Assembly: GCA_029555025.1 (NCBI GenBank)
Contig: JAKPTZ010000102.1
Coordinates: 1-64,000, forward strand
Reading direction: 5' to 3'
Length of the DNA: 64,000 nucleotides
Source of the DNA: Deltaproteobacteria bacterium
Lineage (GTDB): Bacteria > Myxococcota_A > UBA9042 > DTJE01
Shown: piece after piece, positions 1-16,839 of the stretch
Layout of the letters: each line of letters begins with the position of its first letter
How positions within the stretch are numbered: position 1 is the stretch's first letter
Notes under the pieces: generated by a model
What the model saw: the letters and a program-made list of their open reading frames with translations, nothing else
Databases searched by the model: none
Told to the model about the DNA's origin: nothing
Made by a program: the position numbers and the translations under genes

Positions 1-2
1 GG

Positions 3-611
3 CATTACTTCGAGACGGCCGATCATCAGGTCTTGAAAGCGGTCATCAGGCGTCTTGTGAAGGATCCCGGTGTTCTGTGGCTGACCGATCAGTTCATCGA
101 CAAGGGCGCGCCGGGATCCATTCCCGGAAAGGGGATGCCGATCGGAAACCTGACCAGCCAGAACTTTGCCAACCTGTATCTTGGTCCGTTTGATCATTTC
201 ATGAAGGAAGCGGTTCGCATCCCCGGTTATGTGCGTTACATGGACGACATCCTTCTGTTTGACGACGATGCGGTTCGCCTGAAGCAAGCGGTTGTGCTTG
301 CGACAACATTTCTGGAAGGCATGCTGCTTGAAACCAAGGACGAAGCGTTCAGAACCGGCCGGACTTCGGATGGGGTGCCATTTCTGGGATTCAACATCTT
401 TCCGGCGGTGATCAGGTTTGACCGCATCCGACGACGTCGGTTTGCCAGGAAACTTGCGGCGGCTGCCGCCGAAATCCAATCAGGAACGGAAATCCCCGCG
501 AATGTGATGGCAAGTCTGCAAAGCATATACGGCTGGGCCCGAATCGGTGATACCGCGTCATTTGCGCGAACGGTCACCGCAGGCGTTTTGCCTTGGGAAT
601 CCTTTGGTTGA
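3..611 (+). CDS. DGR-type reverse transcriptase, 5'-truncated by window edge
   Basis: Frame is open from position 3 (HYFETADHQVLKAVIRRLVKD...). Motifs GMPIGNLTSQNFANLYL and YVRYMDDILLF; the SQ after GxxT is typical of DGR RTs rather than group II intron RTs. An AAC-rich template repeat follows directly. Confidence 0.9.
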   Translation, partial: HYFETADHQVLKAVIRRLVKDPGVLWLTDQFIDKGAPGSIPGKGMPIGNLTSQNFANLYLGPFDHFMKEAVRIPGYVRYMDDILLFDDDAVRLKQAVVLATTFLEGMLLETKDEAFRTGRTSDGVPFLGFNIFPAVIRFDRIRRRRFARKLAAAAAEIQSGTEIPANVMASLQSIYGWARIGDTASFARTVTAGVLPWESFG

Positions 612-659
612 TTGAAAGTCGCTGTGCAGCGGGGCCGCGACATGTTTGGATTTGTTCAG

Positions 660-805
660 CGGTCGATGGCGACAAGGGCTCCAACCGGGTTAATCGCGGC
701 GGCTCGTGGAACAACAACGCCAGGAACGTTCGCGCTGCCAATCGCAACAACAACGACCCCGGCAACCGCAACAACAACCTCGGCCTGCGCCCCGCCAGCT
801 CGGGA
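660..805 (+). other. DGR template repeat (TR), non-coding, adenine-rich
   Basis: ccAACcgggttAATcgcggcggctcgtggAACAACAACgccaggAACgttcgcgctgccAATcgcAACAACAACgaccccggcAACcgcAACAACAACctcggcctgcgc. If read as a variable repeat it gives SNRVNRGGSWNNNARNVRAANRNNNDPGNRNNNLGLR, with 14 Asn codons (12 AAC, 2 AAT). It sits right after the RT stop on the same strand. Exact boundaries are uncertain. Confidence 0.88.
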
Positions 806-1039
806 CGGCTTCGGCGTTACTGCCGACCGGCCAGAAAATCGGCGCCTGCCGGTGAAAATCCGGCGCCGCCGGTTCCGTGCCATTGTCCTGACCAGTGGCC
901 ATCGACCCGCGCCACGCCGGCAGGTTATCCTGAAGTCGTGGACGAACATTATCCCGGCCGCCCCGGCTGGTAGCTTCGGAAAACCGCTGTCGAACGTCGG
1001 GGCGGCCATGCACCATTCTGTGACTTTTCTGATCCAAAA

Positions 1040-1087
1040 GCAGTGACAAAGACTGTGACAAAGACTGTGACAGAGCTTGTGACAAGA
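1040..1087. repeat. ~12-bp tandem repeat (ctgtgacaaaga), about 4 units
   Basis: cagtgacaaag actgtgacaaag actgtgacagag cttgtgacaaga. Confidence 0.85.
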
Positions 1088-1166
1088 TGCTTGACATACC
1101 AGCCTGCTTTGATGTCCAATTATCCTTGGTTATCGGTTTGTTATATTAGACGGGCGGTTTGACAAA

Positions 1167-2339
1167 ATGCGTGAGTATGAACGGACACATCCCTGGATTT
1201 CCTTTGATCTTGACTTGGGCCGGGCCAGTCCGAAGTTCTGGATGATGCTGGGGGAAATCCAGTCCAAGTGTGAACATATCGCCGGCGTTCCCCTGATGGG
1301 CGATGTGGCGAAGCGGCTTCACCAGGTCTTCCTGGCAAAAGGCGTGCTGGCCACCACAGCCATCGAGGGCAATACCCTGACCGAGGAAGAGGTTGCACGT
1401 CGCATTCAGGGACTGCTGGATCTGCCGCCCTCAAAAGACTACCTTGGTCGGGAAATCGACAATGTGGTGGATGGATGCAACGAGATTCGGCGGCGCATTA
1501 TCGGGGGTGAGGCTGGAATCCTTACGACGGCCCAGATTATGGATTTCAACCGCCGAATAATGTCGGGCCTGCCGGACTCGGTGGAAAAGCTGCCGGGGGA
1601 AATACGGACGGTGAGCGTTGGCGTTGGCCGGTATCGTGGGGCGCCGGCGGAGGATTGCGAGTATCTGGTGGATCGCCTGTGCGAATGGATGAACCAGGAA
1701 AGGCAGCAGGCCCCGGCCGACATGAAAATTGCGATGGGGGTCGTTCGGGCAATCCTTGCGCATCTGTACCTGGTGTGGATCCATCCTTTCAATGACGGCA
1801 ACGGGCGCACGGCAAGGATGATGGAACTGCAGATTCTGCTGGACGTCGCGGTTCCGACGCCTGCGGCGCATCTTTTGAGCAATCATTACAATCAGACGCG
1901 CAGCGAGTATTACAGGATGCTCGATCGATCCAGCAGCGATAATGGAAACGCCATGCACTTCGTCATGTACGCCTTGCAGGGGATGCTGGACGGCCTTCGT
2001 TCGCAGATAGATTTGATCAGGGATTTTCAGTGGGACGTTGCCTGGCGCGAACACGTCTATGCCGCTTTCAAGACGATCCCGGGGACGGGGGAGTCCGTGC
2101 GCGTCAGGCGACGCGATTTAATCCTGGCGCTGTCGAATGTTCGGGATCCTGTTGCCGTGCCAGATCTGCGCAAGATTTCCCCGGAAGTCGCCGAGGCCTA
2201 TGCAGGCCGATCGATCCGCATGCTGTCCCGGGATGTTGAAGCCCTTGTCGAAATGGGACTGGTCGAAGTATCTCCGTCAGGCGCCAGGGCCGCCCGGGAA
2301 AGCATTTTGCGCTTTCTGCCCGGAAGGGCGGAGCGTTGA
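1167..2339 (+). CDS. Fic/DOC family protein (predicted AMPylase)
   Basis: Fic motif HPFNDGNGRTAR; N-terminal inhibitory-type motif TTAIEGN; 390 aa. Confidence 0.93.
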   Translation: MREYERTHPWISFDLDLGRASPKFWMMLGEIQSKCEHIAGVPLMGDVAKRLHQVFLAKGVLATTAIEGNTLTEEEVARRIQGLLDLPPSKDYLGREIDNVVDGCNEIRRRIIGGEAGILTTAQIMDFNRRIMSGLPDSVEKLPGEIRTVSVGVGRYRGAPAEDCEYLVDRLCEWMNQERQQAPADMKIAMGVVRAILAHLYLVWIHPFNDGNGRTARMMELQILLDVAVPTPAAHLLSNHYNQTRSEYYRMLDRSSSDNGNAMHFVMYALQGMLDGLRSQIDLIRDFQWDVAWREHVYAAFKTIPGTGESVRVRRRDLILALSNVRDPVAVPDLRKISPEVAEAYAGRSIRMLSRDVEALVEMGLVEVSPSGARAARESILRFLPGRAER

Positions 2340-2383
2340 CGCCAGGTCCGTAAAGAACCGCAAATGTGAATCCGAAATGAGGC

Positions 2384-2403
2384 GGGCGAATTTTCATTCG
2401 CCC
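2384..2403. repeat. Palindromic intergenic element gggcgaa-ttttca-ttcgccc (copy 1)
   Basis: 7-bp perfect stem; the same 20-mer recurs at 12918 and, inverted, at 16674 and 16820. Confidence 0.85.
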
Positions 2404-2499
2404 TTACGATGTGTTGTGCCTTGACCCAATCCAGAACCAAGGAAAGTCCGATCCCGAAGGCCGAGGACAGTGCGGCAGGTTGACAAGGGCGGCGGGATG

Positions 2500-2534
2500 G
2501 CGTAAACGTTTACGCAACGTAATCGTTTACGTTG
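2500..2534. promoter_or_regulatory. Tandem LacI-type operators
   Basis: Perfect 16-bp palindrome gcgtaaacgtttacgc (2500-2515), then near-palindrome caacgtaatcgtttacgttg (2515-2534), just upstream of a LacI-family regulator. Confidence 0.8.
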
Positions 2535-2561
2535 GGTTTTGGGCGGTTCGGCGGTGGCGGG

Positions 2562-3605
2562 ATGGCGGCGACGATAAAGCAGATTGCCGGGCGGTTGAAC
2601 GTGTCGGTGGCGACCGTTTCGCGGGCATTGAACGACCTGCCGGGCGTTGGCGAAAAAATGCGCCGCAAGGTGCGCCGGACGGCCGCGGAACTCGGCTATG
2701 TCCCGGATTTTCATGCCCGCGCCCTGGTTTCCGGCAAGGTCCCGTTCCTGGGACTGGTCGTTCCCGACATCACGAATTCGTTCTTCCCGGCGCTTGCCCT
2801 GGCCGTCGAGGAGGCCGCCGCGGCCAGCGGACAAAGCCTGATCCTGTTAAACACCAACTGGCGGCGCGATCGGCTTGCCCAGGCCCTGGAACTTCTGTCT
2901 TCCCGGCGCGTTTCCGGCCTGATCGTGGCCGAGCCGCTTGATGCGGCGATCCTTGATTCGGTCGATCTTGAAACCGTTTCGAACGGGCTGGTGCTTGCGG
3001 GCGTCGAAGCGCCAGGTGGAACCGGCCTTTGTTCGGTGATGGTCGATGACCGTGACGGCGGGATGCAGGTCGGTCGCCACCTGGTCGAGTGCGGCGCCCA
3101 TCGGATTGCCTTTGTCGGCGGCCCGTCCGAAAGCCCGAATTCCAGGGACCGCCTGGAAGGTTTGACCATCGGCCTGGGAATTTCCGGGGGCGCGGCCGCG
3201 ATTGTAAGTGTGACCGATGGCGCCTGGACCGAGGAATCCGGATACCGGCAGGCCGACCGTCTTCTTCGGGACATGGTCCCGGACGCCATCTTCGCGGCGA
3301 ACGACCTGCTGGCAATCGGGGTGATGCGCCGCCTGGTCGAAAGCGGGATCGCGGTCGGCCGCGGCGTCGCCCTGGCCGGTTACGACGACACCCACGTCGT
3401 TTCGTTGACGTCGGTGCCGATTACGTCGGTTGCCCAGCCGACCGCCCAGGTGGGTTCGCTGGCGGTCAAATTGCTTGGGCAGATGCTGTCCGGCGACTCC
3501 GGATGCGGCGATGCGGTCCTTAAGCCTTCACTGGTCGCAAGGTCAAGCACGCTTGAATTTTCGAACCTTCACGTTCTGGCGCCACGCGACGCCCAGGGAG
3601 CCTGA
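2562..3605 (+). CDS. LacI-family transcriptional regulator (probable inositol locus regulator)
   Basis: N-terminal HTH IKQIAGRLNVSVATVSRALND and periplasmic-binding-like sensor domain. The start at 2562 (MAATIK...) is preferred because the called start at 2532 overlaps the operator. Confidence 0.93.
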   Translation: MAATIKQIAGRLNVSVATVSRALNDLPGVGEKMRRKVRRTAAELGYVPDFHARALVSGKVPFLGLVVPDITNSFFPALALAVEEAAAASGQSLILLNTNWRRDRLAQALELLSSRRVSGLIVAEPLDAAILDSVDLETVSNGLVLAGVEAPGGTGLCSVMVDDRDGGMQVGRHLVECGAHRIAFVGGPSESPNSRDRLEGLTIGLGISGGAAAIVSVTDGAWTEESGYRQADRLLRDMVPDAIFAANDLLAIGVMRRLVESGIAVGRGVALAGYDDTHVVSLTSVPITSVAQPTAQVGSLAVKLLGQMLSGDSGCGDAVLKPSLVARSSTLEFSNLHVLAPRDAQGA

Positions 3606-3606
3606 C

Positions 3607-5088
3607 ATGGAAAAAAAGGTCCTTTTCAATTACATCGACGGACGTTTCGTCGCAGCCGAGGCCGCCAGTGTCGAAGATGTCTGCAATCCGAGCACCGGCG
3701 AAGTCATTTCCCGCGTCCCGTATTCGGTGCCGGCCGAAATCGATTGCGCCGTGGCCGCCGCCCGTGCCGCGTTCCCATCGTGGTCCAGGACCCCGGTTTC
3801 GCGGCGCGTGAAACCGTTGTTCGACCTGGCCCACGAGATGCACCGGCGCGAGGAGGAACTCTGCCGCGTCCTGGTGCGCGAGATGGGCAAATCCCTGCCG
3901 GACGCCCGCGCCGAAATGAAGCGCGCCGTCGAGAACGTCGAGGCCGCATGCGCGATGCCGCTGCTTCAGCAGGGGGAAAAGCTGGTTGATTGTTCGGCCG
4001 ACATGGACGGCGAGGTGCTGCGCATGCCGGTCGGCGTTTTCGGGATCATCGCCCCGTTCAACTTCCCGGCAATGGTGCCGTTCTGGTTCATCCCGTACGC
4101 GGTCGCGACCGGGAACACCATCGTCGTCAAGGCGTCGGAACTGGTTCCGAACACGATGCAGATGCTTTTTGAGATGATGCACGCTGCCGGCATCCCGAAA
4201 GGCGTCGTGAACCTGGTCAATGGCGACCGGGTCGCCGCGGAAGCGTTGATCGACCACCCGGACGTGGCCGGCATTTCGTTCGTCGGATCGACCCGCGTGG
4301 CCGCCCTGGTTGCCGAAAAGTGCGCAAAAACCCACAAGCGGTTCCAGGCTCTCGGGTCTGCCAAGAACCACCTGGTCGTGATGCCGGATGCCAAGCTGGA
4401 CGACGTGGTGCGCAACATGGTCACGTCGTGTTACGGATGCGCGGGCCAGCGCTGCATGGCGTCTTCGGCCATCGTGACGGTCGGCCGCGAGATTCATGAA
4501 CAGGTCGTTTCGCGTTTCGTGGCCGCGTCCAGGGAAGTCCTGGCCGCAGATCCGCTGGATCCGAAGCATGAAAACGAAGGAATGCTGATGGGGCCGGTCA
4601 TTTCCGCGAAGAACAAGGCCTTTATCGAATCGATGATCCAGCGCGGCGTCGAACAGGGCGCGACCCTTGCCCTGGACGGACGCGGCCTGCAGGTTCCCGG
4701 ATGCGCGTGCGGGCACTTCGTCGGACCGACCGTGTTCACCGATGTAAAGCCGGGCATGGACATCCACACCACCGAAATTTTCGGGCCGGTCGTCGTGATC
4801 CTGAACGTCGATACGCTTGACGAGGCACTGAAGATCATCGCCGACCACCAGTACGGGAACGGGGCCTCGATTTACACCCAGAACGGGTACTGGGCCAGGA
4901 AGTTCGAACTGGAGGCCCGTGCCGGCATGATCGGCATCAACGTCGGCATCCCGGCACCGGTCGCGTTCCTGCCGTTCGGCGGAACCAAGCATTCGGCGTA
5001 CGCCGATATCAAGGCCCAGGGTCGCGACGTCGTCCGCTTCTTCACCGAAGCGAAAGTCATCACGCGCCGTTTCTGGAAAGAGGATTGA
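3607..5088 (+). CDS. mmsA/iolA: CoA-acylating (methyl)malonate-semialdehyde dehydrogenase
   Basis: Aldehyde dehydrogenase superfamily: IIAPFNFPAMVPFWFIPYAVATGNT, SFVGSTRVA, CYGCAGQRCMA; in an iol cluster. Confidence 0.92.
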   Translation: MEKKVLFNYIDGRFVAAEAASVEDVCNPSTGEVISRVPYSVPAEIDCAVAAARAAFPSWSRTPVSRRVKPLFDLAHEMHRREEELCRVLVREMGKSLPDARAEMKRAVENVEAACAMPLLQQGEKLVDCSADMDGEVLRMPVGVFGIIAPFNFPAMVPFWFIPYAVATGNTIVVKASELVPNTMQMLFEMMHAAGIPKGVVNLVNGDRVAAEALIDHPDVAGISFVGSTRVAALVAEKCAKTHKRFQALGSAKNHLVVMPDAKLDDVVRNMVTSCYGCAGQRCMASSAIVTVGREIHEQVVSRFVAASREVLAADPLDPKHENEGMLMGPVISAKNKAFIESMIQRGVEQGATLALDGRGLQVPGCACGHFVGPTVFTDVKPGMDIHTTEIFGPVVVILNVDTLDEALKIIADHQYGNGASIYTQNGYWARKFELEARAGMIGINVGIPAPVAFLPFGGTKHSAYADIKAQGRDVVRFFTEAKVITRRFWKED

Positions 5089-5090
5089 AT

Positions 5091-6191
5091 ATGGATACCG
5101 CAAGCCCCCTGAAGCTGACAACGCAGATTGGAAAGACCGACTTCTGGAACGACTCGTGTTCGATTTCCGAGCTTGAGTACGCGATTTCGCACGGGGCGGT
5201 CGGCGCGACCACCAATCCGACGATTGTTCTTGGCGTGCTGAAAAAGGAAATGCACCTGTGGAGTGACCGGATTGTCGAGCTTATCCGCGACAACCCGACC
5301 TGGGGCGAGGCGGAAGTCGCGTGGCGCCTGATCGAGCTGATGGCCGTTCGTGGCGCCGAGCTGTTGCGGCCGACGTTTTACGCGACGGCCGGCAAGAAGG
5401 GGCGGCTGTCGATCCAGACGAATCCGCAGTACTGGCGCGACCCGGCGGCACTTGCGGCCCAGGCCATCCATTTCAACGGCCTGGCGGAAAACATGCAGGT
5501 GAAGATTCCGGCGACCGAGGCCGGCATCCAGGCGATCGAGGAAGCGACGGCGCACGGCGTCAGCGTCAACGCGACGGTGTGCTTCACGGTGCCGCAGGCG
5601 ATTGCGGTGGCCGAAGCGGTTGAACGCGGTCTTGCGCGCAGGGAGGCCGACGATTGCTCGACGGTTTCGATGAGCCCGGTGTGCACGATAATGGTCGGCC
5701 GGCTTGACGACTGGATGAAGGTCGTGGCCGCCCGCGACGGGATAAAAGCGCCGGAAGGGTTCCTGGACTGGGCGGGCATCGCCGCGATAAAGCGTGCCGC
5801 GGTCGAATACGCCGCGCGCGGGTTCCGGACACGGCTGCTTGCGGCAGCATACAGGCACGACGGCCACTGGTCCGAACTGGTGGGCGGCGACATCGTCCTG
5901 ACGATTCCGCACAGTTGGCAGGTAAGGTTCAACGCGTCATCCATCCCGGTCGTTGCCCGTTTCGACAATCCAGTCGATCCGGCCGTCATCGACTTCATGG
6001 CGGCCAACTTCCCGGATTTTGTTCGGGCATACCGGCCGGATGGCATGGCGCCGGCCGAATTCGACGCTTACGGCGCGACGGCAAGGACGCTTCGGGCGTT
6101 CCTTGTGTCGTACCAGGAACTTCTGGCGGTTGTGCGCGATTTCATGATCCCGGATCCCGACGTGGCCCGTGGCGAAGGTGGAGGAAAGTGA
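5091..6191 (+). CDS. Transaldolase-family protein
   Basis: TTNPTIVLGVLKKE and VKIPATEAGIQAIEEA (Schiff-base Lys motif of transaldolases/F6P aldolases); inside the iol operon. Confidence 0.83.
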   Translation: MDTASPLKLTTQIGKTDFWNDSCSISELEYAISHGAVGATTNPTIVLGVLKKEMHLWSDRIVELIRDNPTWGEAEVAWRLIELMAVRGAELLRPTFYATAGKKGRLSIQTNPQYWRDPAALAAQAIHFNGLAENMQVKIPATEAGIQAIEEATAHGVSVNATVCFTVPQAIAVAEAVERGLARREADDCSTVSMSPVCTIMVGRLDDWMKVVAARDGIKAPEGFLDWAGIAAIKRAAVEYAARGFRTRLLAAAYRHDGHWSELVGGDIVLTIPHSWQVRFNASSIPVVARFDNPVDPAVIDFMAANFPDFVRAYRPDGMAPAEFDAYGATARTLRAFLVSYQELLAVVRDFMIPDPDVARGEGGGK

Positions 6192-6997
6192 TGAAGGATC
6201 CAAGGCTTGACAGGTTCTTACAGGGTTTTGGGCCGGGCCGCACGGCCGTCTGCAGGCAGGATGACACGGAAGTCCCGATGGGGATGGACTTTTTCATCCT
6301 GCGCGCATGTGCGGGCGAAACGATTTTTGACCCTTCGGACGCCGGTTTCGAGTGCGCGTGGCTTCTGATGGACGGAACGGTGCTTTTCCAGCAGGGCGAC
6401 AAATCCCACACGGCGACAAGGACGTCTCTGTTTTCCCAGGATCCTTACTGCATGCACGTGCCGGCCGGGTGCCCGGTGACCATAAGGGCGCTTGCCGACT
6501 GCGAACTGGCGCTTTTCAGGGTTACGAACGACCGATCGTTTTCGCCCAGGTTTTACGACCCGAAGACGATGCTTGAGTGCGAACTGCGCGACCGGGGACG
6601 ATGGAACGACACGGCGTATCGGGTCGTGCGCACCATTTTCGACAACCGGAACAACCCGGACGCGCAGCTTGTCCTTGGTGAAGTCGTCAATTTCGGCGGG
6701 CGCTGGTCCAGTTACCCGCCGCATCATCATCCGCAGCCGGAAATTTACCATTACCGGTTCAGCATGCCGCAGGGATACGGCCATGGCGAACTTGGCGACG
6801 ACGTCCTGAAGATCCGCCAGTACGACACGCTGCGGATTTCGGGCGGTAACGACCACAGCCAGGTCGCCGCGCCCGGTTACGAAATGTATTACATCTGGGC
6901 AATCCGGCATCTGCCGGGGAACCGCTATACAACGCCGGAATTTACGGCCGAGCACGTCTGGCTGAAGGATCTGCCCTTCACCGGCACCCAGTTTTGA
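6191..6997 (+). CDS. iolB: 5-deoxy-glucuronate isomerase
   Basis: YPPHHHPQPEIYHYRF cupin metal motif and GGNDHSQVAAPGYEMYYIWAIRHLPGNRY; flanked by iolA and iolD. Confidence 0.93.
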   Translation: MKDPRLDRFLQGFGPGRTAVCRQDDTEVPMGMDFFILRACAGETIFDPSDAGFECAWLLMDGTVLFQQGDKSHTATRTSLFSQDPYCMHVPAGCPVTIRALADCELALFRVTNDRSFSPRFYDPKTMLECELRDRGRWNDTAYRVVRTIFDNRNNPDAQLVLGEVVNFGGRWSSYPPHHHPQPEIYHYRFSMPQGYGHGELGDDVLKIRQYDTLRISGGNDHSQVAAPGYEMYYIWAIRHLPGNRYTTPEFTAEHVWLKDLPFTGTQF

Positions 6998-7011
6998 CAG
7001 GGGGTTGGCGC

Positions 7012-8877
<1,866 letters not shown>

Positions 8878-12917: not shown

Positions 12918-12937
12918 GGGCGAATTTTCATTCGCCC
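12918..12937. repeat. Palindromic intergenic element (copy 2), between convergent genes
   Basis: gggcgaattttcattcgccc, identical to 2384-2403; possible bidirectional terminator. Confidence 0.85.
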
Positions 12938-16673: not shown

Positions 16674-16693
16674 GGGCGAATGAAAATTCGCCC
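16674..16693. repeat. Palindromic element (copy 3)
   Basis: gggcgaatgaaaattcgccc. Confidence 0.85.
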
Positions 16694-16819: not shown

Positions 16820-16839
16820 GGGCGAATGAAAATTCGCCC
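16820..16839. repeat. Palindromic element (copy 4)
   Basis: gggcgaatgaaaattcgccc within gtaggggcgaatgaaaattcgcccgcc. Confidence 0.85.

Follow-up and report, generated by a model that had tools for sequence, protein, structure and literature searches.

Diversity-generating retroelements (DGRs) act as a "mutation machine", in which a short template is copied with errors at A bases into receptor-like genes, and cellular DGRs are known mainly from sequence. The kind of system described here is already known from Thiohalocapsa, cyanobacteria, Treponema, and Prosthecochloris. In the DGR of Bordetella phage BPP-1, five mismatches in the 21-bp IMH element set direction (PMC3240598), and the spacer folds and recruits bRT-Avd (PMC12875486). 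Among GTDB genomes, the 80 most closely related loci mostly share, across many phyla, the order FGE target, HRDC, Avd, reverse transcriptase (RT), and template repeat (TR). Because this order is widespread in related loci and is also present on an annotated Prosthecochloris plasmid, the system belongs to a known kind. Moreover, in the 65 loci with a pair of TR and variable repeat (VR), 980 of 1630 pooled adenines are changed versus 52 of 4220 other bases.

The window analyzed here covers the initial 64 kb of contig C114 (100,366 bp) from a genome of 3.49 Mb in 158 contigs, which is 97.6% complete. Positions 1 to 963 are almost certainly the 3′ half of a Myxococcota DGR, whose full cassette extends across contig overlaps and would diversify a target on contig C63 and, in trans, another on C99. 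The coding part and its joint with the neighboring contig are as follows.

1 to 141, no strand: stretch shared exactly with one end of contig C55, whose other end overlaps C63 by 141 nt likewise
3 to 611, plus strand: 3′ part (202 of 338 residues) of the DGR RT gene, an ORF open at its 5′ end

The RVT_1 match of this ORF starts at profile position 111, and the motifs IGNLTSQ and RYMDD are present, the first of them in agreement with the DGR-clade pattern [IVL]GxxxSQ; the GNLTSQ/YMDD enzyme that the earlier note had read from the letters is therefore real. Joined over C55 and C114, the RT reaches 338 residues, with its N terminus on C55. Four DGR RT genes were found genome-wide, each with its own TR. 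Against solved structures, the best match of the four is 8ub7 (E 2e-64), a chain labelled reverse transcriptase, which we take to be the BPP-1 DGR RT, followed by a group II intron RT (E 6e-30). In a tree of 48 rows, with no named retron among them, the window RT groups with those of a same-genus genome (L078) and of contig C157 in the group holding BPP-1 brt, and a 100/100 split separates this group from the branch of group II introns. The QGxxxSP motif is thus absent from the window RT, and the placement with group II introns, which the earlier note had named along with retrons as a contrary outcome, is not observed in this tree. The RT tree and the searches by solved structure and by fold all point to DGRs. 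PADLOC and general RT models did not tell the RT classes apart.

The remaining cassette was recovered by following exact overlaps to the left, where the earlier note had placed the Avd gene and the target. The end of C63 is identical to the first 141 nt of C55, and the end of C55 to window 1-141. C55 holds an Avd match and the RT N terminus, and C63 a PEGA-FGE target and an HRDC gene. The rebuilt cassette then reads PEGA-FGE target (VR at the C terminus), HRDC, Avd, RT, and TR, with its joints given by assembly-graph adjacency, and it has the HRDC gene inside, as in the DGR type of Treponema and Prosthecochloris. The same gene order is found in the sister cassettes on C157 and C11, whereas C108 carries HRDC-Avd-RT-TR and has its target on C133. 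For Avd, the Pfam model 23S_rRNA_IVP was insensitive, whereas the bAvd and PHROG models worked, and the Avds of two sister cassettes match both. Since C63, C55, C99, C33, and C133 are short, mis-binning or an origin from co-existing strains could in principle affect them.

An A-rich block begins about 65 nt past the RT stop, and its frame reads GSNRVNRGGSWNNNARNVRAANRNNNDPGNRNNNLGLR, with the 14 Asn codons that the earlier note had counted in a template downstream of the RT. The TR and the VRs discussed below are located as follows.

677 to 792, plus strand: TR core, with 30 adenines and 14 Asn-type codons, matched by VRs on C63 and C99
C63 873 to 988, minus strand: VR matching the window TR with A replaced by N
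C99 762 to 877, minus strand: VR matching the window TR with A replaced by N
C133 (L006) 220 to 334, minus strand: VR C133a, which carries the signature of the C33 TR

When the 116-nt core, with A replaced by N and up to three mismatches allowed, was searched in the whole genome, only the TR itself, C63 (0 mismatches), and C99 (1 mismatch) were recovered, and a backwards control pattern gave no match. Both copies lie outside the 64-kb window, where a scan found no other VR, in line with the earlier note, which had seen none there, had proposed a target to the left or in trans, and had made its reading depend on an A-restricted copy in the genome. The C63 VR differs from the window TR at 23 of 30 adenines and at none of the 86 other bases (Fisher p = 2e-18), and the C99 VR at 19 of 30 and 1 of 86 (p = 3e-13). 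The genome as a whole contains five TRs and seven VRs: C114 pairs with C63 and C99; C33 with a VR on C33 and with C133a; C157 and C11 each with a VR on the same contig; and C108 with C133b. In the seven pairs pooled, 131 of 210 adenines are changed versus 9 of 602 other bases (p = 8e-83), the adenines having become T 58 times, G 56 times, and C 17 times. These p values exclude chance as the source of the match. The interpretation given in the earlier note is supported, every prediction that could be tested having held.

An FGE-sulfatase domain is present in all the targets, in different architectures: with PEGA on C63, with subtilase and EGF-like domains on C11, with a protein kinase on C99, and alone in the others. 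The predicted structure of a same-genus target FGE domain (pLDDT 86) has the Treponema denticola variable protein 1 (TvpA) as its best match in both fold and sequence. This agrees, through an ortholog from the same genus, with the C-type-lectin/FGE-sulfatase fold anticipated from the Asn clusters, and the VR lies near the C terminus of such a C-type-lectin-fold target. The C63 target is proposed to be of a secreted or surface type, and the targets would act in ligand recognition. Also, about 35 full-length FGE-sulfatase domains are present in the 3.5-Mb genome, most of them without a TR match; among its many FGE-domain genes, TR matches occur only in DGR targets. A different explanation is that the RT is a retron or group II intron enzyme, the A-rich repeats being low-complexity Asn stretches that paralogous FGE genes share by coincidence. 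RVT_1 is common to all these enzymes, and FGE matches number 47 in the genome, a few fragments and TRs included. However, the IGNLTSQ motif in place of QGxxxSP, the full-support split from group II introns in a tree with no named retron, the confinement of TR-VR differences to adenines, and the lack of TR matches in ordinary FGE paralogues make this explanation exceedingly improbable.

The comparison between two species of the genus bears on the activity of the DGR. A same-genus genome (G001, GTDB Myxococcota record L078, JAGOFO010000130.1) carries a complete cassette, genome and record having equal RT coordinates and contigs with identical features, and the TRs of the two species share 28 of 30 adenines. 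Their VRs differ at 22 of the 28 shared TR-A sites versus 1 of 76 other shared sites. The near confinement of these differences to TR-A sites means that the system has been active; this indirect, comparative evidence suggests a DGR that was at least recently active, since such VR divergence is what continued mutagenic homing would leave. A dead DGR, that is, an old cassette with its VRs as frozen relics, would account for a TR and target on C33 with no RT on that contig, for C133a as a VR without a target gene body, and for the one to four non-A differences from the TR carried by some VRs of the genome. Nonetheless, we consider it unlikely, given that the RT, Avd, and HRDC genes of the window system are intact across the joints, that the C63 VR has no non-A difference, and that the same-genus divergence falls nearly exclusively at TR-A sites while the TR keeps 28 of its 30 adenines.

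Some parts of this set are found away from any RT. On C99 (2675 bp; L010), an orphan VR closes a kinase-FGE fusion, and 3′ of it another kinase gene begins, instead of HRDC-Avd-RT. The two ends of this contig share 126 nt exactly, within a kinase gene, which may reflect either kinase-FGE target genes in tandem or a loop in the assembly. On the 2.5-kb contig C33, target and TR are separated by only about 280 nt, and no RT is found before the contig end. In C133a, an in-frame stop precedes the VR and the target gene body is absent upstream, this being a fragment, a recombination product, or an assembly chimera. By analogy with Thiohalocapsa (PMC10907252), it is plausible that a remote RT would serve C99 and C33 in trans. 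On the other hand, the C99 VR and the C33 TR could be assembly fragments of cassettes whose RT was left unassembled, with no trans service at all. All these sequences lie on contigs of 1.3 to 2.7 kb, and the shared C99 ends point to a tandem or collapsed repeat in the assembly, which gives this possibility appreciable weight. Nevertheless, it is judged somewhat less likely than not because C33 has no RT between target and TR, which is its place in all complete cassettes, because the 97.6% complete genome has only four RT genes, each already provided with a TR, and because C99 runs into a second kinase gene.

At the 3′ end of the repeats, TR and VR differ in a recurrent manner.

793 to 800, plus strand: 3′ end of TR/VR identity (IMH*), where the C of the TR at base 799 is replaced by G in the VRs (AGC versus AGG)

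An IMH/IMH* difference is therefore present in this system. Of 73 pairs, at least 37 have AG[C/T] in the TR and AGG in the VR, and both VRs of the window TR are among them; the count of 37 is a lower bound because the boundary walk misplaces some boundaries. Moreover, at least three CTT at a spacing of 8 to 10 nt are found 3′ of the VR in 35 of 71 flanks (1.5 expected from shuffles) and in none of 81 TR flanks; since some pairs are related, both the AGG and the CTT counts overstate independence. The orphan VRs C99 and C133a also carry downstream CTT repeats. A G-quadruplex was considered as a general VR-side signal and rejected, as only 5 of 71 flanks fit. Compared with the five mismatches of BPP-1, one base difference may suffice for direction in these DGRs. 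As far as checked, the one-base difference and the CTT repeats, with a period of about 9 nt and present 3′ of half the VRs, are new.

The region 3′ of the TR shows a conserved RNA structure.

795 to 963, plus strand: 3′ domain of the TR RNA with a conserved fold, lying in the spacer region and detected with a covariance model whose training set excluded the window sequence (40 bits, E 5.6e-9)
837 to 874, plus strand: hairpin 1 of this domain, with arms 837-844 and 867-874, from sequence and alignment

The alignment comprises the 3′ flanks of 36 TRs, with that of the window left out, and its consensus consists of GCCAGA, a 10-bp hairpin with the tip UYYAMGGA, CCCGUGC, UGACCA, CC.GCGCC, a CCGG/CCGG hairpin, and ACAAAGA. 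Changes on both sides occur in 13 of 16 pairs, 94% of the cells form pairs versus 70% in shuffles, and double changes number 138 versus 40 in shuffles and 26 to 46 when the alignment is slid. In the window, an inner hairpin (848-852 with 860-864) replaces the usual tip of hairpin 1, which is followed by CCGUGC at 875-880. The evidence for the fold is this covariation; free-energy folding of the window 3′ flank alone gave modest stability (z -1.9) and no consensus hairpin. The covariance model, R1, finds the held-out window, C11, C33, and C157, and over the whole genome it recovers the five TR flanks, that of C108 having been in the training set. One additional marginal match, on C136, sits in what reads as a pdxA-like gene and was dismissed as chance.

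Among 40 relatives, R1 matches occur in genomes with RT-search matches, plus G020, where the RNA domain accompanies a solitary TR-like sequence (G020:C255:616-760; L215) and the RT search found no DGR RT. In cyanobacteria, R1 also matches close to a DGR RT of Anabaena and, less strongly, close to one of Acaryochloris; the BPP-1 spacer gave no match. Weak matches to hairpin 1 alone were obtained in two phage DGRs (L222 3375-3412 and L224 1446-1483; E 0.06 and 0.33), both falling in the TR-RT gap upstream of the RT, where TR and spacer lie. Rfam searches were negative for window 1-3000 at E <= 1, and in nine related loci they gave nothing beyond an unrelated riboswitch and one tRNA. Near the TR, neither promoter nor terminator patterns were found. 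In a literature search that covered few subscription journals and did not extend to the BPP-1 RNA structure papers, this fold and the VR repeats were not described. As far as checked, this covarying RNA fold downstream of the TR, which is common to several phyla and has no Rfam match, is new. Because the BPP-1 spacer recruits RT-Avd (PMC12875486), the same role is the natural inference for the window domain. The DGR feature should then be extended beyond the TR, with the RNA element to about 963 and the remaining cassette on C55 and C63.

Beyond the RNA domain, a Fic/DOC-domain gene (window 1167-2339) follows directly, and then, at 2532-8877, a LacI-like regulator and genes that, to judge from their ORFs, look like an inositol catabolism cluster. 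The window also contains four copies of a perfect 20-nt near-palindrome, GGGCGAATGAAAATTCGCCC (2384-2403, 12918-12937, 16674-16693, and 16820-16839; 0.02 expected), and its 18-nt core is present once on C63 and once on C99, which resembles a REP-type element close to DGR targets.

The following sequence of events would be consistent with these features. The TR would be transcribed together with the 3′ RNA domain, to which RT-Avd would bind, priming cDNA synthesis near the TR 3′ end as suggested by BPP-1, and the RT would misincorporate opposite TR adenines. Through retrohoming, this cDNA would take the place of the VR in the C63 target and, acting in trans, in the C99 kinase-FGE fusion. The TR itself would stay unchanged, perhaps because it has AG[C/T] where the VRs have AGG and lacks the VR-side repeats. 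For cellular FGE-HRDC-Avd DGRs in general, we tentatively suggest, with a confidence slightly short of even, a system of two addresses, in which the 3′ RNA marks the template for RT-Avd, and the AGG switch with the CTT repeats of about 9 nt marks the VR recipient. If so, TRs without an RT (C33) and orphan VRs (C99 and C133a) would be served in trans, the genome could therefore spread targets without copying the RT, and the fold would represent an undescribed RNA family. Such a compact network (four RTs, five TRs, and seven VRs) bears on how one RT serves distant targets, and the RNA fold, the one-base TR/VR difference, and the VR-side repeats are concrete elements for bench tests. Also, R1 can be used as a detector, as it recovered the five TRs of the 3.5-Mb genome and the lone TR-like sequence of G020.

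Finally, each of the described systems shares part of this organization. BPP-1 (AY029185) has in common the RT clade, Avd, TR, VR, IMH logic, and a structured spacer RNA 3′ of the TR; however, its TR lies upstream of the RT, HRDC is absent, a hairpin/cruciform follows the VR, and the spacer is unmatched by R1. In Treponema denticola (PMC4891356; PDB 2y3c), the FGE/CLec variable protein TvpA is the best fold match, an HRDC gene is present, and one TR serves several VRs, although HRDC is placed by that paper between TR and RT, compared with HRDC-Avd-RT-TR in the window system. The Prosthecochloris aestuarii plasmid pPAES01 (NC_011061.1) shows the order FGE target, HRDC, Avd, and RT, with a TR-like sequence after the RT, but it is plasmid-borne and its TR-VR pairs aligned uncleanly in our scan. 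The cyanobacterial remote variable proteins with Ser/Thr kinase-CLec fusions (PMC7517822) resemble C99 in being kinase-FGE fusions with a remote VR, and differ in phylum and in that the kinase and FGE parts of C99 are, in our reading, split by a hydrophobic stretch. Thiohalocapsa PB-PSB1 (PMC10907252) shares several DGR loci per genome, degenerate loci without an RT, VRs that depart from a remote TR only at adenines, and C-terminal CLec domains; it has nine loci and 15 targets with read-level evidence, whereas the five TRs and seven VRs of the Myxococcota genome come from the assembly alone.
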